DNA from: Leucothrix arctica
GTDB taxonomy: Bacteria > Pseudomonadota > Gammaproteobacteria > Thiotrichales > Thiotrichaceae
Length of the DNA: 64,000 nt
NCBI RefSeq assembly: GCF_003172895.1
Contig: NZ_QGKL01000032.1
Location: 1-64,000, forward strand
Direction: 5' to 3'
The first letter of the stretch is position 1, and each line of letters begins with the position of its first letter. The notes under the pieces are model-generated. The model worked only from the letters and a program-made list of their open reading frames with translations, made no database searches and was not told where the DNA came from. Below are positions 18,908 through 63,242 of the stretch, piece by piece. A program made the translations under genes and the position numbers.

Positions 18908-19501
18908 CTAGCCTGTCACCTCCGTATCATAGGCTAGGGGAGTCGCTACTTTTAACCCTGATCTCAGCAGTTTTTGTGCACGTCTCAGCGTTGTTTTTAC
19001 ACTGCCTAGAGGCTTTCCTGTGCGTAATGAAATTTCTCTATGAGACATGTCTTGGTAAAAAGCGAGCATGATCATTTGACGTTCTGACTTGCTTAAGCTG
19101 CCAAGTAAGCGTTTTAATTTTGCTTTTTTTTCGCCTTCAAGTGCTTTAGTTAGTGGCCCTAGTTCGTCTTCATCAGCAACATCATAGTCTTCAATGAGCG
19201 GTAGTTGGTTTCTAGTCGCTGATTTTTCACGTCTTAATGCATCGATCGCTCTACATCGGGCAATCATTAATACCCAAGTCATGGGTGCAGCTAAGTCTGC
19301 ATCATATTTTTTAGCGGTTTGCCACACTTGTATATAAACGTCACTAGCAACCTCTTCGGCCAACTGCTTGTTTACAGTGATTTTCATAATAACGGAGAAG
19401 GTGAGACTAACCGTCGAGTCATAAAACTGATCGAATGCTTGTTTATTACCTTCTGACATAAGGGGAATTAGTTTATAGAGTTCTGTTTGATCAAAAGCCA
19501 T
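18908..19501 (-). CDS. ECF-type sigma-70 factor
   Basis: I chose the ATG at 19501, which has GGAGA about 7 nt upstream. Region 2 is seen in ASDVYIQVWQTAKKYD and WVLMIARCRAIDALRR, and region 4 in LSKSERQMIMLAFYQDMSHREI and GKPLGSVKTTLRRA. The length (197 residues) suits an ECF factor. It is divergent from the DUF4331-lipoprotein pair, which is a likely target. No anti-sigma gene is adjacent on either side, although related sigma factors usually sit beside one. The next gene on its 3' side faces the other way. Confidence 0.88.
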   Translation of the reverse strand: MAFDQTELYKLIPLMSEGNKQAFDQFYDSTVSLTFSVIMKITVNKQLAEEVASDVYIQVWQTAKKYDADLAAPMTWVLMIARCRAIDALRREKSATRNQLPLIEDYDVADEDELGPLTKALEGEKKAKLKRLLGSLSKSERQMIMLAFYQDMSHREISLRTGKPLGSVKTTLRRAQKLLRSGLKVATPLAYDTEVTG

Positions 19502-19768
19502 AGTCATTCTCCAATACTGCTTTGCTTCTGGGTAATCCATTGCTTTTTATGCAGCATTATTGAGAGTCACGAACGGTGTTGATGAAAAGTTTCAATCATT
19601 TTTGTTTATTATGAATTTTTCTTAAGTACTTATAAGTAGAGCGAATATTATCATTTTTTTCTATTTTAAAATAATATGAAAAAAATTAAATCCGGCTGAT
19701 TATCGAGTTGCGTAGAACTTGATGAATGGTGATTACATCATCCGACATCAACTGAGTTGAGGATCAAT

Positions 19769-21241
19769 ATGAAAATTATTACAACATTGAGCAGCGCTGT
19801 TCTTGCGCTGGCTGTCGCAGGAACTTCTCAAGCATCTAGTCATCGTGAGGCACCGTTTGTTGCTGAGCTTCCAAAAGCGGATGCGACTGACTTTTATGCT
19901 TTTAGAAGTTATGAGCCAGATAGAGAAGGTTTCGTTACATTGATTGCAAACTATAACCCTCTGCAAGACCCTTATGGTGGCCCTAACTATTTCAGCTTAT
20001 CTCGCGATACGCTGTATGAAATTCATGTTGATAATACGGGTGATGCCGTTGAAGATTTGACCTTCCAGTTCCGCTTTAGTGACAAACTAGGTGGTGAAAA
20101 TAACACAGGTATTACCTTAAATGTGGGTGGTATAGACGTTGCAGTACCGCTTAAAAATGTGGGTGGTGTAACCGCCGCAGACAGCTCTGCACTGAACTAC
20201 CATGAGTCATATACAGTCACAACAGTGACTGGGGATCGACGTACAGGAACTAAAAATACAGCGACTAACGTTGTCGGTGGTGCGAGTGTATTTGCGAAGC
20301 CTTACGATAACGTTGGCGAGAAAACTTTCGGTACCAGCTACGATGCTTATGCAGATAGCTTTGTTCACTCAGTAAAGCTGGCTGGTTGCCCAGCAGGTTC
20401 TGACATTGGTAAAGTATTCGTTGGTCAGCGTAAAGATTCTTTCGCTGTTAACTTAGGTGAGATCTTTGACCTAGTGAACACCAACCCTCTGGGTGGCGTG
20501 GATGATGAAACAAATGACTTAGCGGATAAGAACGTAACAACGCTAGCATTGGAAGTTCCTATTGAGTGCTTAACCGGTGGTAATGAAAACGGCATTATTG
20601 GTGCATGGACGACGGCAAGTATGTCTCAAGTACGTGTGTTAGACCCAACACCTAAAGCATTGGTAACACAGGTTAGCAGTGGTGCTTGGACGCAGGTGTC
20701 TCGTTTAGGAATGCCATTAGTTAATGAAGTGGTTATCGGCTTACCGGATAAGAACTTGTTTAATGCGAGTGAGCCAAAGGATGACGGTCAATTCATTGAC
20801 TATGTAACGAACCCTACGTTACCTGCATTGATTCAAGCGCTTTACCCTTCAGCACCAGCACCAACAAACTTCCCTAGAAATGACTTGGTTGCTGCTTTCT
20901 TGACCGGTCTTGAAGGCATTAATAAAGACGGTTCTGTTGGTGAAATGATTCGTTTGAATACGAGCATAGCGGTAACGCTGAAAGCTGATCAAAGTAACTT
21001 CGGTGTTGCAGGTGGCGATGCTGCTGGTTTCCCGAACGGTCGTCGTCCAGGTGATGATGTCGTTGATGCTGAGCTTCGTGTCGCGATGGGTTTATTGTGT
21101 CACTTAGAACTGGGCCTATGTGAGCCTACTGACGCACTGGCTGGATTAGCGCCAATTACTGATGGTGTTGAACAGAGAGCTGACCAGTTCGACAACTCTT
21201 TTCCTTATGTGACTACGCCAATCAGTGGTTCACCAAACTAA
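19769..21241 (+). CDS. Secreted DUF4331-domain protein
   Basis: The ATG at 19769 follows GAGGATCAAT; an earlier in-frame TTG is not needed. A signal peptide (residues 1-22) leads to the diagnostic SSHREAP mature N-terminus of DUF4331, followed by KADATDFYAFRSYEP. The 490-residue protein is rich in beta-strands and acidic loops. DUF4331 genes commonly lie beside ECF sigma factors, as here, which suggests ECF-controlled expression of an envelope protein. The biochemical role is unknown. A small lipoprotein gene follows after 10 bp. Confidence 0.88.
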   Translation: MKIITTLSSAVLALAVAGTSQASSHREAPFVAELPKADATDFYAFRSYEPDREGFVTLIANYNPLQDPYGGPNYFSLSRDTLYEIHVDNTGDAVEDLTFQFRFSDKLGGENNTGITLNVGGIDVAVPLKNVGGVTAADSSALNYHESYTVTTVTGDRRTGTKNTATNVVGGASVFAKPYDNVGEKTFGTSYDAYADSFVHSVKLAGCPAGSDIGKVFVGQRKDSFAVNLGEIFDLVNTNPLGGVDDETNDLADKNVTTLALEVPIECLTGGNENGIIGAWTTASMSQVRVLDPTPKALVTQVSSGAWTQVSRLGMPLVNEVVIGLPDKNLFNASEPKDDGQFIDYVTNPTLPALIQALYPSAPAPTNFPRNDLVAAFLTGLEGINKDGSVGEMIRLNTSIAVTLKADQSNFGVAGGDAAGFPNGRRPGDDVVDAELRVAMGLLCHLELGLCEPTDALAGLAPITDGVEQRADQFDNSFPYVTTPISGSPN

Positions 21242-21695: not shown

Positions 21696-22316
21696 TTAGC
21701 AAGCTCTGTAACGGAAGTTGTAACGGTAAATTGTCTTTGTTTTTAGATCTACCGAGTCAACCATCATAAGGGCTTCATTACCACGTTGAGTACGTACTGT
21801 TGCTGCTGTCTTTGAGCGAAGTACAACGTCTGCACCACATGCTGACCATACATTTGCAAATACACCTAAACGATCTTTGATTAGGAAGTCATCACTACGA
21901 GTACCACGCCAGTTTTTAGTCAAGCTAGGGCCACGTGAGCCAGCGAAGAAGTAGTCACGTTTAAAGCTAGCACGCGCACCACGAGGTAAGTCGTTGTAAC
22001 CACGGTAATCAGCATCGACCAGTGATACGCTAATACCGCTTGGAATCTTAAGACCAAATGCTAAGTCACATTTCTTACGGTCAAACGTACGTTGTCCGTG
22101 GCCACCTGCTTCTGCAATGTACTCATCAAATAACAATGAAACACTCTTCTTGTCTGGTGAAATTACAACGGAAGCTGATCCTGAAGGACATCCATTTCCT
22201 GCATAACCAACGTTTTGAATCTGTACCGAGTTAAGGTTTGGAGCAGCGCTTGCTGCCTGAGTTGCTAGTAGTAAAAGTGAGCTTGCTGTCAGTAATGTTT
22301 TGCTAAGTGCTTTCAT
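21696..22316 (-). CDS. Secreted DUF4360 protein, copy 1
   Basis: A signal peptide (about residues 1-24, ending ASAAPN) leads to a domain of about 180 residues with the DUF4360 pattern: GNGCPSGSASVVISPD, a SVSLLFDEYIAEAGG strand, FDRKKC, DYRGYNDLP and a C-terminal RYNFRYRAC. Four conserved cysteines suggest disulfides. It is one of three tandem paralogues on this strand and differs mainly in the middle (SKTAATVRTQRGNEA region). GAGGG is the ribosome site. It has its own terminator and upstream motif, so each copy is a separate transcription unit. The function of the family is unknown. Confidence 0.88.
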   Translation of the reverse strand: MKALSKTLLTASSLLLLATQAASAAPNLNSVQIQNVGYAGNGCPSGSASVVISPDKKSVSLLFDEYIAEAGGHGQRTFDRKKCDLAFGLKIPSGISVSLVDADYRGYNDLPRGARASFKRDYFFAGSRGPSLTKNWRGTRSDDFLIKDRLGVFANVWSACGADVVLRSKTAATVRTQRGNEALMMVDSVDLKTKTIYRYNFRYRAC

Positions 22317-22397
22317 TGTCGTATCCCTCGAATCAACTAAAAAAATTAAGTATTAGAGCGGTGTGTTATGTCTTTCGTTTATTGCTGCTCTTATTTA

Positions 22398-22409
22398 GTA
22401 AAGCGTCAA
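22398..22409 (-). promoter_or_regulatory. Shared upstream motif, DUF4360 copy 1
   Basis: On the minus strand TTGACGCTTTAC lies about 80 nt upstream of the start codon. The same 12-mer, with at most one change, precedes all three DUF4360 copies, with AT-rich tracts upstream of it. TTGACG would serve as a -35 element; the -10 element is not clear. Confidence 0.5.
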
Positions 22410-22479
22410 TTGGCGCTAAAAAGGCTCATTTTTTTTAAAATAAATTAAAATAAAGTTTAATTAAATCAATTATTTGAAA

Positions 22480-22520
22480 TAAAAAAAGGCCACCAGTGTC
22501 AAACAGACAAAGGCAGCCTT
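22480..22520 (-). terminator. Rho-independent terminator of DUF4360 copy 2
   Basis: On the minus strand AAGGCTGCC pairs with GGTGGCCTT (two G-T wobbles) around a 17-nt loop and is followed by seven T. Confidence 0.75.
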
Positions 22521-22548
22521 CTGGGTACTAACTAAAGTACGTTTTTAC

Positions 22549-23166
22549 TTAGCAAGTTCTGTAACGGAAGTTATAACGGAACAACGTTTTAGACTTAAGA
22601 TCGATTGAATCAACCATCATAAGTGCTTCGTGACCACGCTTAGTTTTCACTGTTGCAGCAGACTTAGAGCGTAAAATCACATCCGTTCCACACTTAGACC
22701 AAACGTTAGCTAATACAGCTAAGTTATCCGTCACTTTAAAGTCATCACTACGAGCACCGCGCCATGTCTTCTTCATGGTTGGGCCAGTTTTACCCGCGAA
22801 GAAATAGTCACGAGTAAAGGTTGATGTTGCGCCACGAGGTAAGTCATGGAAACCACGGTAGTCAGCGTTAACCAGTGAAACACTAATGCCACGTGGAATC
22901 TTAAGACCCAAAGCGATATCGCATTTCTTACGGTCAAAAGTACGTTGTCCCTGGCCACCCGCTTCAGCGATATACTCGTCAAACAAAAACGATACGCTAG
23001 TCTTATCTGGTGAAATCACAACAGACGCAGAGCCAGAAGAGCAACCGTTACCTGCGTATGCAGTGCTGTTGATTTTAACGCCACTGACGTTTGGTGCTGC
23101 TTGTGCTTGGCTAGCAAATAATACAAGTGCGCTAGCGGCTAATACTGTGTTGGTAAACTTTTTCAT
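22549..23166 (-). CDS. Secreted DUF4360 protein, copy 2
   Basis: I chose the ATG at 23166, which has GAGGGAAC upstream and gives the same length (205 residues) as the sister copies. The signal peptide ends near AQAAPN. Conserved family blocks are GNGCSSGSASVVISPD, FLFDEYIAEAGGQ, FDRKKC, DYRGFHDLP and RYNFRYRTC. It is the most lysine-rich copy (TMKKTWRGARSDDFKV). No catalytic motif is apparent in any copy, so a structural or ligand-binding secreted role is as likely as an enzymatic one. Confidence 0.87.
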   Translation of the reverse strand: MKKFTNTVLAASALVLFASQAQAAPNVSGVKINSTAYAGNGCSSGSASVVISPDKTSVSFLFDEYIAEAGGQGQRTFDRKKCDIALGLKIPRGISVSLVNADYRGFHDLPRGATSTFTRDYFFAGKTGPTMKKTWRGARSDDFKVTDNLAVLANVWSKCGTDVILRSKSAATVKTKRGHEALMMVDSIDLKSKTLFRYNFRYRTC

Positions 23167-23244
23167 GAGTGTTCCCTCTATGTTATCTAATTTAGTGTCG
23201 ATGTGTATGCAGTCTTGAATTTGCATATTTATTGCTCTTATCTA

Positions 23245-23256
23245 GTAAAGCGTTAA
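23245..23256 (-). promoter_or_regulatory. Shared upstream motif, DUF4360 copy 2
   Basis: TTAACGCTTTAC on the minus strand, one base different from the other two copies, lies about 80 nt before the start codon. Confidence 0.5.
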
Positions 23257-23330
23257 GTCGTCAGATAAAAGGTCATTTATTTTTAATTATTATAATTAAA
23301 TCAATATTTTAAAATAAAAGTGACGAACAT

Positions 23331-23363
23331 AAAAAAACGCACTCACCTTGCGATGAGCACGTT
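23331..23363 (-). terminator. Rho-independent terminator of DUF4360 copy 3
   Basis: AACGTGCTCA pairs with TGAGTGCGTT on the minus strand (10 bp with two wobbles, 8-nt loop), followed by a T run. Confidence 0.85.
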
Positions 23364-23399
23364 TTTATAGAGGTCTAGCTTGACCTGCTTGTTATGTTA

Positions 23400-24020
23400 T
23401 TAACAAGCTCTGTAACGGAAGTTGTAACGGAATGTTGTTTTAGTTTTAAGATCCGCTGAGTCAACCATCATTAGTGCTTCGTGACCACGTTGAGTACGTA
23501 CTGTCGCAGCTGTCTTAGATCGAAGGATTACATCTTCACCACATGCTGACCATACGTTAGCCATTACACCCATACGATCTTTAACAATGAAGTCATCACT
23601 TGTAGAGCCACGGAAGTTCTTAGTAAGGCTTGGACCACGCTCACCAGCAAAGAAGTAAGTACGTGAGAATGTTGCACGTGCTCTACTTGGTAGGTCAGCA
23701 AAGCCACGGTAGTCAGCGTCGATCATTGCTACTGAGATGCCGTTTGGAATTTTTAGACCGAATGCGATATCACACTTCTTACGATCAAAAGTACGTTGAC
23801 CTTGACCACCTGCTTCAGCGATGTAGTCATCAAACAAAACTGAAACACTTTGCTTATCAGGAGCAAGAACAACTGAAGCCGAACCACCTGGGCAACCGTT
23901 ACCTGCATAACCTACTTTTTCGATGGTAACGCCACCAAGATTTTGGCCAGCAACTGCTGCTTGTGAAGCGATTAAAGCTAGAACTGAAGTTGCGAATAAT
24001 GAAGTAATTGTGTTTTTCAT
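23400..24020 (-). CDS. Secreted DUF4360 protein, copy 3
   Basis: This is the first-transcribed position of the three-gene array. The signal peptide ends near AAVAGQ. Family blocks are GNGCPGGSASVVLAPD, VLFDDYIAEAGGQ, FDRKKC, DYRGFADLP and RYNFRYRAC. It has ADLKTKTTFRYNF where copy 1 has VDLKTKTIYRYNF. Sequence similarity runs along the whole length, so the array arose by tandem duplication rather than from unrelated sources. AGGGAC precedes the ATG. Confidence 0.87.
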   Translation of the reverse strand: MKNTITSLFATSVLALIASQAAVAGQNLGGVTIEKVGYAGNGCPGGSASVVLAPDKQSVSVLFDDYIAEAGGQGQRTFDRKKCDIAFGLKIPNGISVAMIDADYRGFADLPSRARATFSRTYFFAGERGPSLTKNFRGSTSDDFIVKDRMGVMANVWSACGEDVILRSKTAATVRTQRGHEALMMVDSADLKTKTTFRYNFRYRAC

Positions 24021-33823: not shown

Positions 33824-34025
33824 GCCCATAGAAGGCTAATTCTCTTGTTAATAATAAGCGTGTTAAATTTGTATTTATGCTTAAATTTATGCCTGTTTGT
33901 TTCTGTTCTCTTGTCTTGAAGACCACTTATCCTGAACTAATATCCGCTCATAAATTAACTAGGTTTCATCTTAAGTGCTTTAGGTAATAGTGCCCAAGAC
34001 TATTAAAATCAGGGGTAATTTGGGT

Positions 34026-36890
34026 ATGAAACACGGTGTTATAGAGCGGTCATTATTAATCATCCCCTTGCTGTTATCAGCAAATGTCTACGCGGCCAAC
34101 TCAGATACAGGCAGTTGGTCAGCGGTCATCGATATGCCCATTATCCCAGTTGCCGTCGCTAACTTGCCCAATGGTAATGTGCTGACGTGGGCGGCTAAAG
34201 ATAGGAATGCATTTGGTGGAGTGACGGGACGTACCTACACCGCAATATTTGACCCTTATAACGGCACCTCGACCGAAGCGCTCATCTCATACACCAATCA
34301 CGATATGTTCTGCCCAGGGATTAATAATTTACCGGATGGCCGCATACTCGTTGCCGGTGGTTCGGGTAACGAAAAAACTAGCATCTATGACCCAGCAACT
34401 GGCGCATGGGCGACTGGCGACCCGATGAATACCGTACGAGGTTATCAAGGAAACGTGACCTTAACTGATGGTTCGTTGCTGACGCTGGGTGGTTCGTGGA
34501 GTGACCAAGCAGGTAATAAAAATGCAGAGCGTTGGACGCTAGAAGCAGGTTGGATTCCTTACCCTGCGATCAAATCTATCGATACTGTGCGTGATGGTTC
34601 GCCTGATCCTGCTGGCGAGTTTCGTGATGATAACCACGCATGGTTATGGGCTGCTCCCAATGGCAAAGTGTTTCACGCAGGGCCAAGCAGCAATATGCAC
34701 TGGGTAGACTTTGCAGGTGATGGAACTGTGACAGCAGCGGGCACGCGAGGTAATGACCCTTACTCCATGAATGGCACAACCGTGATGTATGACGCGGGGA
34801 AAATCTTGAAAACAGGTGGCGCGCAAGCGTATGACGGGCTTCCGGGACAGTATCCTGCAACCAAAAGTAGCTACACCATTGACATTAATAATGATACGGC
34901 TGTTGTGCAGCAAGTCCAAGACATGGCTTACTCGCGCGCCTTTCATAATTCGGTCGTGTTACCGAGTGGTGAGGTATTTGTTTCTGGTGGTATGACAGCA
35001 CCGATTGGTTTTTCAGATGAAGATGCTGTACTAGTCGGTGAAATTTGGAATCCTAGTACTCAAGCATGGACGCAAACCGCAGCCATGGTAAAGCCGCGTA
35101 CTTATCATAGTGTGTCGATACTACTGAATGATGGACGTGTGCTCGTCGGCGGTGGTGGTTTATGTGCAGGTTGTGCAGTGAACCATCCAGATGTTGAGAT
35201 CTTCTCGCCACCGTATTTATACGTTAATGGCACAGATACTTTGGCGACTCGCCCAGTGATTACTCAAGCGCCAGACACCGCTGCTTATAATAGTAATATC
35301 ACGGTACAGACCAACTCAGCAGTTACCGCCTTTGCTCTGGTACGTGCAAACTCAGCAACGCACAGTGTCAATAACGAACAGCGAAGAGTACCAGTGACAT
35401 TTACACGTATATCGGCAACCAACTACCAAGTGAATATGCCGAGTCGTAATGTCGCACCTCCGGGTAATTACATGTTGTTTGCGCTTAATGCAGCAGGTAC
35501 ACCGAGTGTTTCTCAAACTATAAAAGTCGGTAGTGCGGATGTTGCACCAACACTGGCAAATGGTCTTTATGAAATAGAATCACCAACCAGCGCACAGCGT
35601 TTGGGCGCACCTGAGTGGAATAACTTTCAAGCACGTATGGTAGGCGCAGGTGACTGGACAGACCAGCATTGGGATATCGAGCACCTAGGCGGGTTAGTGT
35701 ATACCGTTCAAAACGTCGCAACTCAAAAGTACCTTGAAGTAAATAACGCATTTTGTGGCACAGAAGGTTTTGATTACATTGTTGGGTCAGATACTTCAGC
35801 CTCTAAAAACCAACGCTGGATCATTACCCAAGGGGCAAGTGGCAACTACAGCTTCCGTCCACAACATTGTAAAACCAAAGGCTTGGATAGAGAGCAAGAT
35901 CTGTTAAATGCCAGCGCGATTGTCTGGGACTATGCACCCAATCACGCACCTCAGCTATGGAAGTTAAACGCGCTAAGCACAACGCCAGTGGTAGAGCCAC
36001 CAACAGGTGATGGTGTTGTTATGCCAGATGGTGAGTACTGGTTGGAATCACCGATTCAAGGGCAGCGTTTAACGCTACCAGAGTGGAGTAACTTCATTCC
36101 TCGCATGGTTGATTCAGCAGAGTGGTCAGATCAAAAGTGGATTGTTAAGCACCTTGGCGATGGTGTTCACACCATTCAAAACACTTACCACCAGCAGTAC
36201 TTACAAGTAACAGGCTCGTTCTGTGCGGATGGTTTAGGTAGTATCTCAGGGTCTGCGACTAGTGCTAGCGCCAATCAACAGTGGCGCATCTATCAAAGCG
36301 GTACGAACTACACGCTAAAGCCAGCGCACTGTTTAACCAAGAGTCTTGACCGTGAAGGTGGCTTTGTAAATGCCAACGCCATTGTCTGGAACTCAGAAGA
36401 TAATCATGTGCCGCAGCTATGGAAACTAGCATCAACCAGTAACTCTGTAGTGGTAGAGCCAGGCGCTATTGCAGATGGTCGCTATTGGATTGAGTCTCCA
36501 TCATTTGGTCAGCGTTTGTTAGCGCCAGAGTGGAATAACTTCGATGCACGTATGGTTGGTACTGGTGTCTGGGACGATCAGAAGTGGGACATTACACACC
36601 TAGGCGGTGGCGAGTACACCATTAAAAACGTTTACTCTAATAAGTACCTACAAGTAGCTAATAGTTTCTGTGGTACAGGTTTAGGCGCTATTAACGGTGG
36701 TGATACTGGGACAGCAGATAATCAGAAGTGGCTCATCACAACCAGTGGTTCTAGCTATAACTTTAGACCAGTGCATTGCCCTACCAAAGGCTTAGATAGA
36801 GAAGAAGGTTTGGTAAATGCGAACGCGATTGTTTGGGACTTTATAGCGAACCATGGCCCGCAGTTGTGGAATGTTGTTTTGGCAAACTAA
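34026..36890 (+). CDS. Secreted galactose-oxidase-like copper radical oxidase with three lectin-like repeats
   Basis: The ATG at 34026 gives a signal peptide (residues 1-24). The next 480 residues align with fungal galactose oxidase and keep all radical-copper residues at the same spacing: Cys96 (C228) in MFCPG, Tyr140 (Y272) in RGYQG, Trp158 (W290), Tyr360 and His361 (Y495/H496) in TYHS, and His446 (H581) in THSVN. Then come three homologous repeats of about 150 residues (508-650, 665-800, 814-953), each starting YxIESPxxxQRL and ending in QLW, like ricin-type beta-trefoil domains. It should oxidise primary alcohols of sugars to aldehydes, giving H2O2. The repeats probably bind a glycan. A strong terminator follows. 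Confidence 0.9.
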   Translation: MKHGVIERSLLIIPLLLSANVYAANSDTGSWSAVIDMPIIPVAVANLPNGNVLTWAAKDRNAFGGVTGRTYTAIFDPYNGTSTEALISYTNHDMFCPGINNLPDGRILVAGGSGNEKTSIYDPATGAWATGDPMNTVRGYQGNVTLTDGSLLTLGGSWSDQAGNKNAERWTLEAGWIPYPAIKSIDTVRDGSPDPAGEFRDDNHAWLWAAPNGKVFHAGPSSNMHWVDFAGDGTVTAAGTRGNDPYSMNGTTVMYDAGKILKTGGAQAYDGLPGQYPATKSSYTIDINNDTAVVQQVQDMAYSRAFHNSVVLPSGEVFVSGGMTAPIGFSDEDAVLVGEIWNPSTQAWTQTAAMVKPRTYHSVSILLNDGRVLVGGGGLCAGCAVNHPDVEIFSPPYLYVNGTDTLATRPVITQAPDTAAYNSNITVQTNSAVTAFALVRANSATHSVNNEQRRVPVTFTRISATNYQVNMPSRNVAPPGNYMLFALNAAGTPSVSQTIKVGSADVAPTLANGLYEIESPTSAQRLGAPEWNNFQARMVGAGDWTDQHWDIEHLGGLVYTVQNVATQKYLEVNNAFCGTEGFDYIVGSDTSASKNQRWIITQGASGNYSFRPQHCKTKGLDREQDLLNASAIVWDYAPNHAPQLWKLNALSTTPVVEPPTGDGVVMPDGEYWLESPIQGQRLTLPEWSNFIPRMVDSAEWSDQKWIVKHLGDGVHTIQNTYHQQYLQVTGSFCADGLGSISGSATSASANQQWRIYQSGTNYTLKPAHCLTKSLDREGGFVNANAIVWNSEDNHVPQLWKLASTSNSVVVEPGAIADGRYWIESPSFGQRLLAPEWNNFDARMVGTGVWDDQKWDITHLGGGEYTIKNVYSNKYLQVANSFCGTGLGAINGGDTGTADNQKWLITTSGSSYNFRPVHCPTKGLDREEGLVNANAIVWDFIANHGPQLWNVVLAN

Positions 36891-36977: not shown

Positions 36978-39236
36978 TTATTTTTTAGTAGCGTTAACCA
37001 GTTGCACTCGCAATGAACTTGCTGCGCCTAGCTCAACACTCGTCTGAGCACCTAAGCCACGCATTCTAGTTGCAATTTTGCGCAGTCCTTTAGATAAAGC
37101 AATATCCAATGGTGTCTTCTCATAGTCATTAGCTACATTAACTTCCGCACCTTTTTGCAATAGGTACTGAGCGATATCTAGCTTACGATTGAGTAGCGCA
37201 TTAAGTAATGGCGTATTACCTTGTTTATCTACACTATTTGGGTTTGCACCTGCATTGAGTAAGATGCGAGTGATTAGCGTATTGTGGTTGTTAACCGCAA
37301 GGTGCAGTGGCGTGAATGCTTCATTATCTGACATCGTGAATTTAGGTTTGTAGGCCAGTAACAACTGAACAAGTTTTTCATCATCTTTACCAACCGCATA
37401 GTGTAAAGCGGTACGTTTAGACTTAGTGCTGGTTGCATTGACGTTAGCACCTGCGACCAATAACAGGCGCATCTTTTTCATATCACCCGCACGCGTTGCA
37501 AGGTGCAGCGGCGTTTGGCCGTACATATAACGGTCTTCCTCGTTAACCGCATTTACATCCGCTCTTGCGGCTAATAGAAGCTGCAAAATCGTTGTGTCTT
37601 CTTGCGCAACTGCAATATGAAGCGGCGTATTACCCGTCTCTTTATCACTCGTCTTTTGTCTAACGCCCGACGCAATCAACAACTTAACTAATGGAATGTT
37701 TTGTGTTTTTACCGCAGTCATTAATGGTGACTGTGTACGATCACTGATTTTGTTGATATTTACCTTTTTAGCAATGAGTAACTTGGCATAGCTTAAGTTC
37801 TTCTTAGTCAAAGCGTTACCAATAGGTGAGCGACCATATTTATCACCAACATGCGGGTTTGCGCCTATTTTTAAGAGCGTTCGAGTGATTGCCAACTCAT
37901 CGTTCTGGATAGCCAGTAACAATGCTGTTTCACCCTTATCATTTTTCTGATGAATATTGACGCGATCAGCCAGCAGCTGAGTAACAATATTTGTCTTTCC
38001 GTTCACCGCTGCACGGTGTAACAGGCTGTTACCATCCTTATCTTTCACGTATACATTGGCACCGCTACTCAGTAGTAATTGCGTAAAGCGAGAGTCGTTT
38101 TTTTCGATGGCAATTTGAATAGGCGTACGTTCGTAAGCATCTTTAATATTGACGTCCACACCTTTGGCAATCAATGCCTGCGCTAGCTCCATCTCGGTAT
38201 TCGCAATGGCGCGATGGATTAAGTATTGCCCTGAATACTCTAAGTTTGGGTTAGCCCCGATAGCCAATAGAAAACGAATCATATCGTTGTTCTTAGCTTC
38301 AGCCATCAGCACCAAAGGTGGTTTTTTATTGGTGACATTGATGTTGGTTTTGTACTTCACCAATAGACGCATCGCTGCCTTATCGCCTTTTTCCAACGCT
38401 TGCATAAACAAAGGGAAAAAGTCGATCTTGTCACTCTTATAAACACGTTTTAAAAACATCTCTAAAACAGGGTAGTTGCTTGGTTTACTGGTGATTAGCG
38501 TACTTAACATCGGCACGTAGTTTTGCAGTAGCTCAACATCCTTACCATGATCTAAGAATGACTTCGCGACATTCCACTTTCCAAGCTTGATGACCTCAGG
38601 CAGCAGGCGGTTGTTTTGATAGTGTATCGCAAGCGGTTCAATACGTAATACGTTGGCAGCTTTTATGTGATCGTTTTCTTTAACCGCATCAGCTAAAACT
38701 ACACCTGCAGAAATAATCTTAGCGCGTTGCTTATAAGGAAAATTTAGGTAGTCAGTCGGATAGTATTGTTCGAAGTCCATAGACTCGATATGGTTCTGAA
38801 AGAAGCCAGCCGCAGGGTTAGCCCCTTGCGCGATTACCCACTTTGCCAGCTTGGTATAACCTTGCGATAAAGCAATGTCGTAAGCCGTTCCACTCGCATA
38901 CTCGTAACGACGTTTACCCGTAACATAACGGTTGAGTTTGTCAGCGCGTACATTCACCTGCTGAATGAGTGAGCGACTATTTGAACGGTAGTCGATTGGG
39001 AATTGTTTTTTGAATAGCTGCTGTGCGCGTTGTAAATTGTTATCTGCAACTGCTAATAAAAACTGGTCTGCCTCTGATAAGCATTGCACGGAGCCTTTAG
39101 TGACAACGACTTGCTTTGTGTTGTTTGTATCAATGGTGCACTCTGCCGAAACAGTAGCACTTGTTAGGGCAAGTACTACTGCTGAGGTTAGCTTTAGAAG
39201 TGCGCTTGGATTTTGCTTTGTAGTGAGTGTAAACAT
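36978..39236 (-). CDS. Secreted ankyrin-repeat protein
   Basis: A signal peptide (about residues 1-31, ending SAECT) leads to a non-repeat region (to about 250) and then to some 14 ankyrin repeats, for example GETALLLAIQNDELAITRTLL, and TPLHLAVNNHNTLITRILL with GANPNSVDKQGNTPL. Such repeats form a scaffold for protein binding. An exported ankyrin protein of 752 residues is unusual. It is transcribed away from the sigma/SUMF1-like pair across a 226-bp gap. A link to that pair is inference. Confidence 0.88.
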   Translation of the reverse strand: MFTLTTKQNPSALLKLTSAVVLALTSATVSAECTIDTNNTKQVVVTKGSVQCLSEADQFLLAVADNNLQRAQQLFKKQFPIDYRSNSRSLIQQVNVRADKLNRYVTGKRRYEYASGTAYDIALSQGYTKLAKWVIAQGANPAAGFFQNHIESMDFEQYYPTDYLNFPYKQRAKIISAGVVLADAVKENDHIKAANVLRIEPLAIHYQNNRLLPEVIKLGKWNVAKSFLDHGKDVELLQNYVPMLSTLITSKPSNYPVLEMFLKRVYKSDKIDFFPLFMQALEKGDKAAMRLLVKYKTNINVTNKKPPLVLMAEAKNNDMIRFLLAIGANPNLEYSGQYLIHRAIANTEMELAQALIAKGVDVNIKDAYERTPIQIAIEKNDSRFTQLLLSSGANVYVKDKDGNSLLHRAAVNGKTNIVTQLLADRVNIHQKNDKGETALLLAIQNDELAITRTLLKIGANPHVGDKYGRSPIGNALTKKNLSYAKLLIAKKVNINKISDRTQSPLMTAVKTQNIPLVKLLIASGVRQKTSDKETGNTPLHIAVAQEDTTILQLLLAARADVNAVNEEDRYMYGQTPLHLATRAGDMKKMRLLLVAGANVNATSTKSKRTALHYAVGKDDEKLVQLLLAYKPKFTMSDNEAFTPLHLAVNNHNTLITRILLNAGANPNSVDKQGNTPLLNALLNRKLDIAQYLLQKGAEVNVANDYEKTPLDIALSKGLRKIATRMRGLGAQTSVELGAASSLRVQLVNATKK

Positions 39237-39462: not shown

Positions 39463-40062
39463 TTGTCCAACGCTGTGTCATATACCGATAAAAACTCCGA
39501 AAGCGAATGTCGCCAAATGCTGGATAACTTTGTCTTTCAAAAAGGTGACCTCGGAACTGCGCTGCTCGCAACTTTGACCCAGTACATCAAGTTCTGTAGT
39601 TATAAAATGCAGCCTTTGAGTGTCGAAGACCAACAAGAAGTGTTGCAGGAAGTAGGTATTAAATTACTCAATAAACATAAGCAACTAACAGGCAACTGTA
39701 GTGGCTGGCTGTTTAAAATTGTGCGAAATGAGATTATTGACCAGCTGCGTAAACAGAAAAGTCGGCCAACATTATTAGAGCCTGATAACAGTGGTAATCT
39801 CGTTGAAGTGCAGCCCCAGTATCCTGCGGAAGTGCTTCATCATAAAAATCTGTATCACGAGACGGACTGCATCGAAAAAGTTTTCGATGAGATTGAGAGT
39901 CAACCCACAGGTGGTGAGGATTTATCAATCTATACGCACTTTGCGATGGGCAAAAGTAATGCTGAGATTGCCGAAGAAACTGGGCGAACCAGCGGTGCGA
40001 TTGCTAAGCGTATCTCGATTTTGCGTCAGCGTGTTAAACAGCTAAAACAAGTACTTTGCTGA
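39463..40062 (+). CDS. Sigma-70-family (ECF-like) sigma factor
   Basis: The frame opens with a TTG after AGAAGGAA, with no nearer ATG that keeps region 2. Region 2 is seen as LSVEDQQEVLQEVGIKLL and NCSGWLFKIVRNEIIDQLRK. The region-4 HTH includes MGKSNAEIAEETGRTSGAIAKRI. The 199-residue size suits an ECF sigma factor. Its stop is 12 bp before the gene for a membrane protein with a cytosolic N-terminus, the usual place of an anti-sigma factor. Target promoters are unknown. Confidence 0.85.
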   Translation: MSNAVSYTDKNSESECRQMLDNFVFQKGDLGTALLATLTQYIKFCSYKMQPLSVEDQQEVLQEVGIKLLNKHKQLTGNCSGWLFKIVRNEIIDQLRKQKSRPTLLEPDNSGNLVEVQPQYPAEVLHHKNLYHETDCIEKVFDEIESQPTGGEDLSIYTHFAMGKSNAEIAEETGRTSGAIAKRISILRQRVKQLKQVLC

Positions 40063-40074
40063 GGACTAACGATA

Positions 40075-41262
40075 ATGGCAACTAGTAACGGCGAAGATCA
40101 GGACGATCAAAAACAATGGGAAACGGTGTTGTCTGGCGAACATTTGCCTGTTGAACATAGTAGTGCAGAGCAGGAAGCGGATGCTTTACGTCAGGTACTC
40201 ATTTGGCGTAACGCTAAGCAAATGAACACTCAGCACACGCCAGAAGATGCCGCTGCGTTTTACCAGCACTTGCAGGGTATACAACGTCAGCGGAAACGCG
40301 CTCGCATACTGCGTTGGGCGAAAATTGTTATTTCAAGTATTCTTGTTTTCGTGATAGCCGCTAGCGTGTGGTTTTATCTTGAGGGCAGAGGTACAGATGT
40401 AACTCCAACGGTTGAATCAACGGGTAAAAAAATAACAACTCAAGCGCCTCAGCAAGGAGCCATAAAGATACTTCCACTAATGCCTGAGTTGGTTAGTATC
40501 CCTGCTGGCGAATTTGTGATGGGTTGTACTGCTGGTTGGGATGATGCTGTTGGTGGTTGCCGTACCAATGAATTCCCAGCACATACGGTAGAAGTTGCGG
40601 CCTTTAGCATGGGGCGCTATGAAGTGACGATGGGGCAGTTTAAGCACTTTGTGAGTGAAACTAACTATCAAACAGTGGCTGAGCAAAATAATCAGGGTTG
40701 CTCGGTATTAGATCCAAATAACCCTAGTCAGTGGATGATGGTACCTGCTAATAACTGGCGTAACCCTGGATTCACTCAGACAGATTCACACCCAGTGGTT
40801 TGCCTGAGTTGGCAAGACACACAGTATTATGTGTCTTGGTTAACGGACAAAACCAATCAGCAATATCGACTGCCTAGCGAGTCAGAGTGGGAGTATGCTG
40901 CACGAGCAGGGCGTGTCACTGCGTTTTACTGGGGAAGCAAAGGCGATAGGCGTTTTGCTAATTACCAAGGCACTGCCACACATGATAGTTGGCTAAACAC
41001 GGCACCTGTGGGCCTTCATTCTAGTAATAAGTTTGGCCTGCATGATATGGCAGGAAATGCTTGGGAGTGGACGGCTAGTTGCTGGCGTGAGAGTTATCAA
41101 ACACCAGAGCTGTCTAATGAAAACTGTACAAGCAAGCTAAGATCGAGACGTGGCGGTGGCTGGGATAATAATCCGCCAAGTATTCGTTCGGCTTATCGTA
41201 GCTCTGGGAATGAAGTGGAGCGGAGTAATTTGTATGGTTTTCGGGTAGTAACCGATCATTAG
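40075..41262 (+). CDS. One-pass membrane protein with periplasmic SUMF1-like (pseudo-FGE) domain
   Basis: The first 80 residues are cytosolic, charged and helical (EDAAAFYQHLQGIQRQRKRAR), followed by one membrane helix (about 86-106, IVISSILVFVIAASVWFYL). The C-terminal half is a formylglycine-generating-enzyme-like domain: FVMGCTAGWDD, MGRYEVTMGQF, YRLPSESEWEYAARAG, MAGNAWEWTAS and RGGGWDNNPPSIRSAYR. The two catalytic cysteines expected after GGSW are absent. Six other cysteines suggest disulfides. With the sigma gene 12 bp upstream, the layout is that of a membrane anti-sigma factor or sensor with a SUMF1-type ligand domain; this is inference. Confidence 0.82.
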   Translation: MATSNGEDQDDQKQWETVLSGEHLPVEHSSAEQEADALRQVLIWRNAKQMNTQHTPEDAAAFYQHLQGIQRQRKRARILRWAKIVISSILVFVIAASVWFYLEGRGTDVTPTVESTGKKITTQAPQQGAIKILPLMPELVSIPAGEFVMGCTAGWDDAVGGCRTNEFPAHTVEVAAFSMGRYEVTMGQFKHFVSETNYQTVAEQNNQGCSVLDPNNPSQWMMVPANNWRNPGFTQTDSHPVVCLSWQDTQYYVSWLTDKTNQQYRLPSESEWEYAARAGRVTAFYWGSKGDRRFANYQGTATHDSWLNTAPVGLHSSNKFGLHDMAGNAWEWTASCWRESYQTPELSNENCTSKLRSRRGGGWDNNPPSIRSAYRSSGNEVERSNLYGFRVVTDH

Positions 41263-41286: not shown

Positions 41287-41310
41287 AGAGGAGTCAGCTG
41301 TGACTCCTCT
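41287..41310 (+). terminator. Hairpin terminator of the sigma/SUMF1-like unit
   Basis: AGAGGAGTCA and TGACTCCTCT form a perfect 10-bp stem with a 4-nt loop. The T-tract is short. It may also serve the convergent gene. Confidence 0.65.
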
Positions 41311-45658: not shown

Positions 45659-48600
45659 TTATACAAAGAGTTTCAAGATTTCTGAAGCTCTTTCTCGTAT
45701 TTCTTCTTCAGTATCATCAAGCATTAAAGTTACATACTTCTTTTTATCATCTTCATACAGAAAATCTAAATCGAATAAGTCCATCGAAGCAAATCTTATC
45801 TCTGGATTTTTATGTACGATGAGTGCTTCCCACTTTTTAAACTCATTGTCTCCGAGTGGAAGCATTGCCTCAATTGCCTGACGAAGTAGTGATGCTGACA
45901 AGGCCTCATTGTCAATTTCATCGAGAAATACTGAGTGATTAGTTCTCGATGACTTGAAGCTTTTTATGAGTTCAGTTCTTGCTATATTTTTTATATCAGA
46001 TCGAGGATCATTCAAAAAAAGCTTGATTTCGTCATAATTCAGCTGCCTGGTTTTTATTAATGCCTCTAAGAGTTTTTCACGTGGACTGATAGGAATAACT
46101 CCTCCCTTCACGGGATAAGGTTCTTCATTTTTTGCCCAGTAATCTAGACCATAGGTAAACAGGTTGAACAATTTAGTGTGTTCGGGGTCAGTGAGCTCAT
46201 AAAGATGTTCAGCCACAACAACAGCAGTCTTAGGATTACTGCTCAGACCATTTTTAAATATTGAAAAGAGCTTATCACTGTACTCCAAATCAACTTTTTT
46301 TAGCTGCTGAAAAAGGTACTCACAGCCATCTACAAGTGGTTCAGATAATCGTTTGAATAACAGTCTCCTCGATTCATCTTGATCTAACTGCGCAATCAAG
46401 GCAGCTGCTCCACCTAGGGCATATCCTTGGCCAGTATCTAGTAATTCTTCTACAAGTATTAGTTGGTCAGGTTTAGGTAGTAAATTTTCAATAAAGTTAA
46501 CAGCAATCCAAACAATTAAGTGCGAGGGGTGATGAAGTGCAGATTCAACCTTTTTTATATTTAAATCCAGAGTTGAAGCTAAATTCCAGTCAATTTCGGT
46601 TGGGTCAACATCAACTTGGAGGTCATAAAAACTTCTCTTGTCATTATTTTCCGCATACAAGTAGTTTCTTGCATGCTGAGCTTCTTGTTGAAGAGCTACT
46701 GTATCAATACCTGTCAACTTAACAAAGTTTCTAAGTATTTCATTAGTTACTTCTTGGTCAAAACCTTCAGTCCAGTTCCAGACAATATTTTTTTCGAAGT
46801 GCATTGAAGCTAAAAGCGCGCTAAGGTTTATCAGTGGCTTTGGTTCAACATTATTTGAATCTATTTCTTCTGATGCGCCTAGAGCATCAAAAACAGCTGT
46901 GTAGGCTATACGGTTAGCATTGTCATATTTATCATTACCTGAAAGTACGCCTGACAAACGAGCTAGATTTTTTTCGTGCAGTTTGTTTTTTGCCCAAACT
47001 ATATTTTTTTCTTTTAATATTTTATAGAGTCCATTACTAAATGTCGTTGATCCGTAACGTTCTCTTTCTAATAACTCTTCTATGAACTCATCTATTAGTG
47101 GTGCAGGTTTTGTTTCAATTAAAACGGGTAATATAGATAGAGTGAATGACTCTAGTAGCTCATAACCATAGTTTTTGCTAAATATCATTCCATTACCGCC
47201 TAACGATTGGGACCATGGGCTTTTGATTCTTTTCTGGTTAACACGTAAAGCACTTTCGAGCTCCTCAACGGGGTAATAACTCTTTCCTGCGGCAAGTGAT
47301 GATGTCCAAGCTGCCAAATATGTCCATGGTTGTTCATGCTTTAATAGTTTTTTGGCTCGCAAACCGACTTCATTTGGGTAGTGCTTCGCAACTAAAGATA
47401 ATGACATACCAACTTGAAAAGCCTCATCTTTTTTCTCTGACTGTACAATTTTAAACGCTCTTTCAAGAATTTTTATTCTCAAACTGCTTTCAACCGAATT
47501 CTCTTTTGTTATCATAATCTCCAGTGCAAGAACTATAGATTTATAAGCGCAATCTGATTCATCTGAAACCAGTGCAGAACTAACCTTGTCCGCAAGCCCT
47601 AATAAAACAGCAAACCTCAGAACTTCCTTAAACTCAGACTTTCGATAAACACTATTTAAATATGTATCTTGCTCTGGAGGTGTTAAAGAAATTAGATAAC
47701 GAGCAGCTACAAATTCGCCAAAACTTTTATGGATAAAGGAAACGGTCTTCTCGGAGTTGATACCAATACGTTCAACTACTCCAATACTCTCCCAGTACTG
47801 AAGAAGTTTTTCTACCTCCGAATGAGCTTTGACAAGGCTACACTCAAGGTCTGATTTAATACTAATAGCGCAGGGTTCTAGTAGTTCATTGAGTCTAGTT
47901 AACGGATCGTTAGTAAGGTGCCAACCTAAAATATTCAAGAACTTTTTGCGCAATATTAAAGATTCTGGTGCCTCAGCAATACGAGGGTTAGGTGTCTCAT
48001 CAATAATTTCGAATATCTGCTCAAATAATTTTTCTTTCGTCTCACCTAAATGCCGACCACGCACCAGTACTGATGCTGAAAGTCCTAAAAGTAAAGGGCT
48101 TCTAGCTACTACTTCTTTAAATTCCTTATTGGTGAGCTCTTTGTCGCAGAGCTTATTTATATCATTTTGGTGTTCAAAATTGCTTGGCATGCTTGCGTAG
48201 ACCAACGTTGCCAAATTTGAGACGGCAGATGAAGGTTCCATCGTGGCCAATCTATAATGCCGCCAATCACTAAAGTGAGCTGTATCGTAGCCAACAGGGC
48301 GTGTAGTTACTAATACACGAGCGCTTGGATAGCCAATGGCAAAACGTTCAACACCAGCCGCTACTTCTTCTTGCAAAGAACCGCATTCGTCTAAACCGTC
48401 ACAAAGCAGTAACCAACTCTGGAACTTAGACTCCTTCGCTTCCGCTGAGCTAATGCCACTTCCATCTAATGATAAGTCAAAGATAGCCTCTTCAAAGCTG
48501 TAGCCACTCTGCATACGAGCAGCCACAGCTTTTAATTTCATATTTAGAACCGGAATACGATCCTCGCTATAACGCCGAGCTATCCGTTTTAATAAAGTAG

Positions 48601-49600
48601 TTTTCCCCATTCCTGGGCCACCTATCAAAACACCACGCTGAATAAATCGTCCAAGAGTTTCAGGGTCGACAATAGTTTCATCATTGCTAATAGACCTTGA
48701 GCTCAAGGATTGATATTTTTTCAGGGCTTCAGCAAGGGTATCAGTTGCTTCATCGGGAGTCTTTTCTACAACCACACGCACGGGAATCCATGCTTGGTCA
48801 ACTTTTAGTTTCTTTTGTACACCAAGTATTGAAAAGTACTCTTGTGTATCAGAAATCCACTCGCATAGCTTATTTAACAACACAACTGGGGCTTTAGATG
48901 TCTCTTGAGAAAGCTTGATTCCTTCAGATTTGAGTAAGCGAGATATAGATGACATCTCTCGCCTTCCCTTCAATTCAATTAAGCGCGCTGCATCTTTGCA
49001 AATGCTATTCCAAGCAGCAGTGGTTTGCGTATGGTCACTACAAAGGTCGTTAAGCATATTCTGTGCAGTGCGGATATCAGCTTCGTCAGCAGGTGTGGCA
49101 CTTATTGTTTGAATACGAATATTTTGACAGGTTGAACGAGTGGGTAGATTATCTTTCGTGAGTCTTTCAAGAAACTCTTTTGAAATGGGGGCAATTTCAT
49201 CTTCGCGTCCATCGCCGAGCCTAGTAATATCTTTGCTTAAGTTCTGAGTAATTGTACTACTGCTGCTGGGTGATACGATTAGAACGCCATAACTTATTGT
49301 TTTATCATTAATAGCCTTGGCCAGAGCCATCAGAGAATCCCATAATTTATTGCCTCTTTGGAGCCCTTTTTTTACCTGAACTTCAACCACATCACCTGAC
49401 TTTAAGATAAGTCGGATGTCATCACCGGGTCCATTTGTTTCAGCTTCGATAGCTACAGGAATATCTTCAATTAGCCCGTGAAGCCATTGCAATGATTGTC
49501 CTTTCATCATGTAAACAGTTGCGATTGCTGAGACCGTAGCCTGATAGTTTATTCCGCCACCTGTTGCTGCCCCACCTGCTGGAGATTTATTTTTAGACAC
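45659..49600 (-). CDS. Nuclease-NACHT-HEAT STAND NTPase, predicted anti-phage protein
   Basis: A GTG start with AGGG upstream opens a 1313-residue protein. Residues 10-150 look like a DUF4297/Cap4-type PD-(D/E)xK nuclease (IEAETNGPGDDI at 51-62 and VEVQVKKG at 72-79). The NACHT domain has Walker A IGGPGMGKTT at about 327 and Walker B LLLCDGLDEC at about 400, followed by the VTTRP element. The C-terminal half is helical, HEAT-like repeats that probably sense a phage product. Bacterial NACHT proteins with nuclease ends kill infected cells by DNA cleavage; this role is inferred. It stands alone on the minus strand. Confidence 0.85.
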   Translation of the reverse strand: MSKNKSPAGGAATGGGINYQATVSAIATVYMMKGQSLQWLHGLIEDIPVAIEAETNGPGDDIRLILKSGDVVEVQVKKGLQRGNKLWDSLMALAKAINDKTISYGVLIVSPSSSSTITQNLSKDITRLGDGREDEIAPISKEFLERLTKDNLPTRSTCQNIRIQTISATPADEADIRTAQNMLNDLCSDHTQTTAAWNSICKDAARLIELKGRREMSSISRLLKSEGIKLSQETSKAPVVLLNKLCEWISDTQEYFSILGVQKKLKVDQAWIPVRVVVEKTPDEATDTLAEALKKYQSLSSRSISNDETIVDPETLGRFIQRGVLIGGPGMGKTTLLKRIARRYSEDRIPVLNMKLKAVAARMQSGYSFEEAIFDLSLDGSGISSAEAKESKFQSWLLLCDGLDECGSLQEEVAAGVERFAIGYPSARVLVTTRPVGYDTAHFSDWRHYRLATMEPSSAVSNLATLVYASMPSNFEHQNDINKLCDKELTNKEFKEVVARSPLLLGLSASVLVRGRHLGETKEKLFEQIFEIIDETPNPRIAEAPESLILRKKFLNILGWHLTNDPLTRLNELLEPCAISIKSDLECSLVKAHSEVEKLLQYWESIGVVERIGINSEKTVSFIHKSFGEFVAARYLISLTPPEQDTYLNSVYRKSEFKEVLRFAVLLGLADKVSSALVSDESDCAYKSIVLALEIMITKENSVESSLRIKILERAFKIVQSEKKDEAFQVGMSLSLVAKHYPNEVGLRAKKLLKHEQPWTYLAAWTSSLAAGKSYYPVEELESALRVNQKRIKSPWSQSLGGNGMIFSKNYGYELLESFTLSILPVLIETKPAPLIDEFIEELLERERYGSTTFSNGLYKILKEKNIVWAKNKLHEKNLARLSGVLSGNDKYDNANRIAYTAVFDALGASEEIDSNNVEPKPLINLSALLASMHFEKNIVWNWTEGFDQEVTNEILRNFVKLTGIDTVALQQEAQHARNYLYAENNDKRSFYDLQVDVDPTEIDWNLASTLDLNIKKVESALHHPSHLIVWIAVNFIENLLPKPDQLILVEELLDTGQGYALGGAAALIAQLDQDESRRLLFKRLSEPLVDGCEYLFQQLKKVDLEYSDKLFSIFKNGLSSNPKTAVVVAEHLYELTDPEHTKLFNLFTYGLDYWAKNEEPYPVKGGVIPISPREKLLEALIKTRQLNYDEIKLFLNDPRSDIKNIARTELIKSFKSSRTNHSVFLDEIDNEALSASLLRQAIEAMLPLGDNEFKKWEALIVHKNPEIRFASMDLFDLDFLYEDDKKKYVTLMLDDTEEEIRERASEILKLFV

Positions 49601-62318: not shown

Positions 62319-63242
62319 ATGCATCTGCAGCGGGCGATTTTGCGCCTATTAATCAGCGTAGTACTTATGCTCTCAATCAGTTCGATTGCGACTGCAAATG
62401 AATGCCTAGCGTATGCGCATAAAAGTGTAGAGCAAAACAGCCGTAACCTATTTAATCAGTGTGGCTTTCATGGTTCTCAGTGGTCTAGCGACTTCAACCG
62501 TTGGAATACAGAATGTAATAGCATGAGTGGAAGAGATCGCCGTCATCGTTTACAGATGCGCGAAGGTTTTCTTTCTCAGTGCCCAACAGTTGCTTACTCG
62601 GGTGCAGGGCGTAATTATCAACGTAAACTGTCCTTGGCCTTACTAAAAGCAGTGCAAGAGGGCAGCTTAAGACGTACTGAGCTGTTAGTTCAAGCAGGTG
62701 CTAACCTGTCAGCACAGCCTCAATGGCTTCCAGCATCGCCTTTGTATACCGCTATTAAAAGCAAATCGTATCATTTAGTGCGCTTCTTGCTGCGTAACGG
62801 GGCTAAGTCGCACCTGTTAGCGAACGGTGAGATGAATATGTTGAGTTTGTTATTGCAGAGTCAGGACACAAACTACGCTATGTTTGAGTTCTTGCTGCAA
62901 AACGGTGCCAATCCAAACTTATTAGGCAAGCAAGCGGATGTTGATTATCCACTTGTGATTGCGGCTGCCAAGGGTGACTTTCGTTCGGCTGACTTGTTGC
63001 TACGTTATAAAGCAGATCCTAATTTGTACCTTGGTCGCTCTGCATTGCAGTTAGCGGTTGAGCAAGACCATTACCCGCTGTCACGTGCGCTTATTCAGCG
63101 AGGTGCTAACCCAAACTTGGGGATAGGTGGCAAACGATGCGATGGGATTATGGCTTTAGACTTGGCCTTTCGTAATGCGCAAGAGCGTGTCGTTGACTTG
63201 TTAATGGATAATCACGCATTAGCACAGCGAGAATGTCACTGA
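62319..63242 (+). CDS. Secreted ankyrin-repeat protein, shorter
   Basis: A signal peptide (about residues 1-27, ending IATANE) is followed by a Cys-containing segment and five ankyrin repeats (ALLKAVQEGSLRRTELLVQAGAN, LYTAIKSKSYHLVRFLLRNGA, FEFLLQNGANPNLL, DFRSADLLLRYKADPN, LQLAVEQDHYPLSRALIQRGANPNL). The C-terminus has one Cys pair. It is like a short version of the exported ankyrin protein at 36978-39236 and probably binds proteins in the periplasm. It stands alone between the ligase and the glycosyltransferase. Confidence 0.83.
   Translation: MHLQRAILRLLISVVLMLSISSIATANECLAYAHKSVEQNSRNLFNQCGFHGSQWSSDFNRWNTECNSMSGRDRRHRLQMREGFLSQCPTVAYSGAGRNYQRKLSLALLKAVQEGSLRRTELLVQAGANLSAQPQWLPASPLYTAIKSKSYHLVRFLLRNGAKSHLLANGEMNMLSLLLQSQDTNYAMFEFLLQNGANPNLLGKQADVDYPLVIAAAKGDFRSADLLLRYKADPNLYLGRSALQLAVEQDHYPLSRALIQRGANPNLGIGGKRCDGIMALDLAFRNAQERVVDLLMDNHALAQRECH

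Follow-up and report, generated by a model that had tools for sequence, protein, structure and literature searches.

The gene pair and its parts

The window analyzed is a 64,000-nucleotide stretch of Leucothrix arctica DNA (NCBI RefSeq assembly GCF_003172895.1, contig NZ_QGKL01000032.1, positions 1 to 64,000 of the forward strand). Within it, a gene for an ECF-type sigma factor is followed on the same strand by a gene for a membrane protein with a SUMF1-like outer domain (Table 1). The sigma start codon is TTG, with AGAAGGA upstream. The initial annotation had placed the stop of the sigma gene 12 bp before the second gene, and the coordinates read from the sequence agree with this exactly. The inverted repeat downstream of the pair was not scored as a terminator by the terminator scan.

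Table 1. Coordinates of the gene pair, its parts and its neighbors.
Feature	Position	Strand	Basis
752-aa ankyrin protein, signal-peptide-like start (by eye), divergent to the sigma gene	36978..39236	-	
ECF-type sigma factor, 199 aa, regions 2 and 4	39463..40062	+	Pfam/NCBIfam, relatives
Sigma Cys136 (position -64), invariant	39868..39870	+	18/18 complete sigmas
Sigma Cys199 (last residue), invariant	40057..40059	+	18/18 complete sigmas
12-bp gap between the sigma and membrane-protein genes	40063..40074	+	sequence
Membrane protein with SUMF1-like outer domain, 395 aa, proposed anti-sigma factor	40075..41262	+	
Cytosolic helical domain (N-domain), residues 1-78, proposed sigma-binding	40075..40308	+	alignments, models
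Membrane helix, residues 84-102	40324..40380	+	hydrophobicity, charge bias
Flexible outer linker, residues 103-136	40381..40482	+	pLDDT <50 at residues 105-128
FGE/SUMF1-like domain, residues 137-392, six conserved Cys	40483..41250	+	
Cys151-Cys162 loop (MGC..GWDD..GGCR in most)	40525..40560	+	alignment, motifs
Position of the FGE catalytic Cys pair; membrane protein reads RGGGWDNNPPSI	41149..41184	+	
10-bp inverted repeat 3' of the pair, between converging genes	41287..41310	+	read from sequence
Ankyrin protein, signal-peptide-like start, probable orthologue of the pair-adjacent ankyrin protein	62319..63242	+	
Short similar proteins directly 3' of the pair in other genomes	L066:4652-5125, L068:7895-8311, L070:10931-11353, L073:11188-11601, L074:11551-11934		

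Occurrence of the pair in related genomes

Co-occurrence of the two genes in relatives had been proposed as a check, its absence counting as refutation; viewed from the sigma, FGE and N-domain sides, the two genes do co-occur. A sigma-family search of 63 genomes of the family returned 21 places in 14 genomes, and at 17 of these the sigma gene runs into an FGE-type gene (interrupted in the L077 copy and cut by the contig end in the L076 copy). Three sigma places themselves end at contig ends (G069:C14, G002:C24 and G033:C74), and one, the divergent sigma of L079 (G009:C1), has a different membrane partner. A looser sigma cut-off (1e-10 in place of 1e-20) yielded nothing beyond these 21 in the 63 genomes of the order; the group of sigma/FGE pairs is sharply bounded.

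Viewed from the FGE side, a sigma homologue lies directly upstream in 15 of the best 17 proteins by score from 57 relatives, a set to which the contig-edge copy L012 and a half copy on G003:C46 do not belong. Two full-length membrane-FGE proteins (L025:4227-5504 and L026:4247-5509) have no adjacent sigma gene; their partner sigmas could be encoded elsewhere in the genome. A profile of the N-domain matched 19 places in 12 of the 63 genomes at E up to 0.01. Sixteen lie behind a sigma gene, two are orphans and one is at a contig start, and all 19 matches are membrane-FGE-type proteins, cut and interrupted copies included. The L027/L070 pair was missed by this profile because its membrane protein, although sigma-paired, lacks the first two helices.

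The genome of L. arctica carries three paralogous sigma/FGE pairs, and three of its eight FGE places lie directly behind a sigma gene of the studied family. With 21 TIGR02937 matches and approximately 4,300 genes (estimated from 4.75 Mb), well under one neighboring sigma/FGE pair would be expected there by chance. Gaps at the 17 junctions are short, or start and stop codons overlap as TGATG or TAATG (3 of 17); junction start codons in the relatives were picked manually. Pairing and gene order hold in several genera as well as among paralogues.

Among the matches listed for 369 genomes of the class, the sigma profile found three genomes at 1e-20 and the N-domain profile matched three strongly, all of the same family, and neither profile gave a convincing match outside the family. 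Seven further N-domain matches in that listing (E 0.002-0.008) were taken as noise. A contig scan with one degenerate pattern found ten loci; eight belong to the sigma group by similarity and the remaining two are Bacteroidota sigmas (37-38% over 84 and 50 residues). A generic ECF profile found no ECF sigma around 67 other FGE loci, in flanks of up to 1.5 kb. These loci comprise sets of 27, 9 and 26 and five from the L. arctica genome; the 27 and the 26 were taken from the matches listed, a few loci were entered twice, and one locus, L012, holds a member of the family truncated at the contig end. The generic profile was built from 13 L. arctica sigmas and finds five of five control loci, two of which are inside the profile.

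Gene neighborhood and promoters

Two gene contexts surround the pair, and the branches were named here Thiothrix-type and Leucothrix-type. The Thiothrix-type branch comprises seven loci (the window, L062, L063, L064, L065, L071 and L072). In five of the seven, a gene for a small ankyrin protein adjoins the pair; the N-terminus of this protein is Cys-rich and begins like a signal peptide. At L062 the end of the ankyrin gene alone is present, at the contig end. The distance from the ankyrin gene to the pair is about 2.7 kb in L065 and 21 kb in L. arctica. The best seven matches of a profile of the ankyrin N-terminus (151-206 bits; next 102 bits) are exactly the seven branch genomes, of which six are contained in the profile and thereby favored, while G028 (180 bits) is outside it. 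Any tie between the pair and the larger, divergent ankyrin gene upstream of the sigma gene is hypothetical.

In the Leucothrix-type branch an upstream gene, presumably cobS from its appearance, is common to six loci, and a short downstream gene is common to five (Table 1). The short protein of L066, the one of the five examined, is a stand-alone DUF772 (transposase part). Inspection of 18 upstream regions by eye revealed no common motif, and a promoter scan covering sigma-70 types only returned four sites vs 4.0 expected from shuffles. Neither the sigma factor nor the membrane protein matched PADLOC at 1e-5.

Topology and N-terminal domain of the membrane protein

The membrane protein has one strongly hydrophobic stretch, the membrane helix of Table 1. 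Lys and Arg number seven in the 15 residues before it and one in the 15 after, a bias that makes an N-in/C-out orientation probable. The layout given in the initial annotation (a helix-rich cytosolic N-terminus, one membrane helix and an FGE/SUMF1-like outer part) was borne out, and this topology is conserved in relatives.

The N-domain is short, helical and divergent, with W15, G21, A35, L42, Y63 and R73 invariant in 16 rows. Models place helices near residues 7-19 and 30-51, then one long helix from residue 56 through the membrane. When the 16 N-domains were run with hmmscan against Pfam, no known anti-sigma family was found (one member matched Sigma_reg_N at E 0.21), and searching the PDB by profile gave no sensible chain. 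Behind the divergent sigma of L079 (the 18th, 115 bits; G009) lies the gene for a 240-aa protein that has a hydrophobic helix, a different outer part and a weakly similar N-terminus, in which W15, G21, L42 and Y63 are kept. Of the non-members, this N-terminus scores best against the N-domain profile, although at a weak value (E 0.033 in 310 proteins). A partner with another outer part is the expected picture if the N-domain binds the sigma factor and the sensor has been swapped. The confinement of the N-domain, across the 63 genomes, to membrane-FGE-type proteins likewise speaks indirectly for sigma binding.

The N-terminus was also modelled together with the sigma factor, as proposed earlier. 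The pLDDT of the N-domain rises (block means 71-90 when joined with the sigma factor in one chain vs 51-79 for residues 11-80 in a model of the membrane protein alone; pTM of the joined model 0.60), but the gain is partly unspecific because values for the membrane helix rise too (71-80 to 92-98), and the prediction is weak. In a fold search with the joined model sigma factors rank first, none at E <0.001. Whole-chain alignments gave 15.1 Å for 1or7 and 12.6 Å for 4nqw, both anti-sigma-bound, vs about 21-25 Å for RNAP-bound sigmas; at such values the nearer fit is only a hint. Sigma and partner distances co-vary over 15 pairs (r 0.73 for the N-domain and 0.85 for the FGE domain; 0 of 5000 permutations each), while among the eight Leucothrix-type pairs the sigma/N-domain co-variation is not significant (r 0.36, fraction 0.084). 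Common descent alone could also yield such co-variation.

Gene order, topology and pairing would also fit a regulator of the FecR sort, in which the membrane protein does more than hold the sigma factor, being needed to activate it, and its outer domain relays a signal from another envelope protein. The ankyrin protein that one branch carries near the pair could serve as relay partner. No FecR-type family, however, is among the 22 Pfam families listed for the 16 N-domains; we consider this arrangement unlikely.

Outer FGE/SUMF1-like domain

Residues 137-392 match Pfam FGE-sulfatase (PF03781) with 186 bits. The site of the FGE Cys pair reads RGG[GAS]W[DN] in 17 of 17 family proteins, vs GGSYMSHRSYCYRY in the human FGE C336S chain, so the initial annotation was right that the FGE active-site cysteines are absent. 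Such absence is usual in the superfamily: of 38 rows of FGE-type proteins from outside the family, several of them duplicates, 28 show the motif and ten do not, and among the 28 none has both cysteines and two have one.

The domain had further been called catalytically dead. That description stands for the formylglycine reaction and is overstated otherwise, because PvdO, whose sequence likewise lacks the FGE Cys pair, is needed in the final oxidation step of dihydropyoverdine, although inactive when purified (PMC6206403, in the portion available). The outer domain might be an active enzyme, with PvdO-like oxidase or other FGE-superfamily chemistry, which the sigma factor controls or is co-made with and does not bind. 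In its favor, PvdO is the first Foldseek match of the outer domain (E 4e-18) and ties with human FGE at the top of the VIA ranking (Z 26.1). The NCBIfam PvdO model, on the other hand, scores 149 bits, far under its cut-off of 500. An enzyme would also leave unexplained both the conserved N-terminal helical domain, which in 63 genomes is confined to proteins of the paired type, and the different outer part behind the divergent L079 sigma. We regard the enzyme reading as improbable beside that of a sigma-binding membrane protein.

Six cysteines follow the membrane helix in 17 of 17 proteins. Five of the six columns are invariant, those of Cys151 and Cys162 included (17 rows), and the sixth (Cys351) is present in all, with a shifting alignment. 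Additional cysteines number none in 15 proteins and one in two, and the pattern as a whole makes three disulfides likely.

In a protein of another genome of the family (L013:1489-2919, on G019:C23) a TIR domain, a hydrophobic stretch and an FGE domain are combined, with a similar Cys loop (MGC..GRDD..GGC). PF03781 domains are proposed, in the available portion of PMC8195603, as lectin-like sensors fused to many outputs, e.g. TIR. Together, the TIR-FGE protein and this proposal suggest that the FGE domain is a receptor module, the output of which would be transcription in the sigma pair. In the region of the divergent sigma of L079 and its partner (L079:8942-11538, on G009:C1), a gene just upstream encodes a caspase-domain protein with a C-terminus that appears FGE-like by eye; Pfam detects the caspase domain and no FGE in it.

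Sigma factor

The sigma factor matches Pfam Sigma70_r2 with 29.3 bits (cut-off 24) and the ECF superfamily model TIGR02937 with 43.4 bits, just over the cut-off of 42.9. For Sigma70_r4_2 the score is 18.7 bits, below the cut-off of 25.7. Of the paralogues, the sigma on C37 scores 34.7 against TIGR02937, under the cut-off, and that on C33 is not among the matches at E 1e-5. The sigma model matches region-4 structures, e.g. 3hug_G (Z 7.7, 73 residues, 2.4 Å), such Z values being common for helical models.

A Cys as last residue and a second exactly at position -64 are found in 18 of 18 complete sigmas, L079 included, at constant spacing, and neither is found in any of the 19 other TIGR02937 matches of the L. 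arctica genome. From this pattern, region 4 may contain a thiol or metal switch. That the sigma factor is itself the main switch, sensing thiols or metal through this pair with the membrane protein secondary, is very unlikely, for the cysteines may be structural, and such a switch would not account for the conservation of a membrane-protein partner.

Proposed function and comparison with known systems

The two genes probably encode a sigma factor and its membrane anti-sigma factor, as gene order, topology and a weak structural prediction together suggest. Most likely the membrane protein works like a class I anti-sigma factor; it is not filed as one here because its N-domain has no family match and the model is weak. 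Speaking against it are the missing family match, the sigma-paired L027/L070 protein that lacks its first two helices, the two full-length proteins with no adjacent sigma gene, and the lack of a common motif in the 18 upstream regions. The earlier proposal of an envelope sensor for the sigma factor keeps its footing in the conserved pairing, order and topology, and less so in the structural prediction, which is weak and partly unspecific. In the proposed mechanism the N-terminal helices (residues 1-78) would hold the sigma factor at the membrane and the outer domain would bind a ligand or partner in the periplasm. Binding would lead to proteolysis of the linker or to a conformational change, and the freed sigma factor would then transcribe a gene set. 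In one branch the ankyrin protein, probably exported, may be the partner or a target.

With class I anti-sigma factors of the RseA, RskA and RsiW type, too, the sigma gene is directly followed by a gene whose product spans the membrane once and has a helical N-terminus in the cytosol. Unlike them, the protein studied here has an N-domain that matches no Pfam anti-sigma family and an outer domain that is FGE/SUMF1-like. The ASDI is given as a three-helix bundle plus a fourth helix in the available portion of PMC7406223, whereas in the present models two helices are followed by a long one that continues into the membrane, with no clear four-helix ASDI.

The fold is that of FGE/SUMF1 (VIA Z about 26), but the catalytic Cys pair is missing in all 17 proteins. 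PvdO, a periplasmic protein of pyoverdine maturation, shares both fold and missing pair and is the best match by sequence as well as by Foldseek; the protein described here differs in being sigma-paired and in falling far under the NCBIfam PvdO cut-off. To our knowledge PvdO has no comparable membrane anchor. In the Thr-phosphorylation pathway of type VI secretion, the periplasmic FGE-like protein TagR passes a signal on to a membrane kinase; unlike the sigma-paired protein it is a separate protein with a kinase output. We know of no sigma factor in the TagR pathway. In the available portion of PMC7253367, tagR1 is labelled 'FGE-sulfatase domain-containing protein'. The FGS (PF03781) domains of bacterial conflict systems belong to the same Pfam domain, but in the portion of PMC8195603 available they are intracellular and tied to NTPases or DGRs, whereas the domain described here follows a membrane helix and is linked to a sigma factor.

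A sigma factor with a membrane anti-sigma factor is already known as a kind; an FGE/SUMF1-like sensor domain in that role looks like the new part. No description of FGE/SUMF1 paired with an ECF sigma or anti-sigma factor was found in the literature covered, which did not extend to the 2021 ECF classification, where the pairing may be listed. It does not appear in the available portions of PMC7253367, PMC12452194, PMC9736018 and PMC8195603, and the words 'sulfatase' and 'FGE' are absent from the main text of the ECF papers PMC7406223 and PMC8103513. FGE/SUMF1-fold domains lacking the catalytic cysteines are common in bacteria, mostly with functions not known. If such a domain is an anti-sigma sensor, the target genes of the sigma factor would reveal what these domains detect, and envelope signalling would have one more type of sensor.

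A three-part system can also be envisaged, although we regard it as doubtful. It would consist of a disulfide-rich FGE/SUMF1-like receptor, lectin-like or peptide-binding; an exported Cys-rich ankyrin protein as ligand or adaptor; and a sigma factor with a thiol switch formed by Cys -64 and the C-terminal Cys. Different outputs could share the outer module (anti-sigma in this pair, TIR in a related genome), which would be exchangeable, and surface sensing of invaders or stress would be coupled to transcription or to a death-type response.

Other genes in the window

A second ECF sigma gene (18908-19540) is divergent from the gene of a DUF4331 protein (19757-21241). At the start of the window (56-2407) is a gene for an LRR-Roc-COR-TIR protein of 783 aa with a ThsB-like TIR part, followed at 2542-3976 by a toxin-antitoxin pair of the AbiEi/AbiEii type. 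A NACHT protein of 1313 aa (45659-49600) is weakly similar to the candidate defence family PDC-M54A. Three similar proteins of 206-225 aa are encoded in tandem at 21696-24020, the one examined being a DUF4360 protein, and a galactose-oxidase-like protein of 966 aa with three ricin-type lectin stretches is encoded at 33990-36890.
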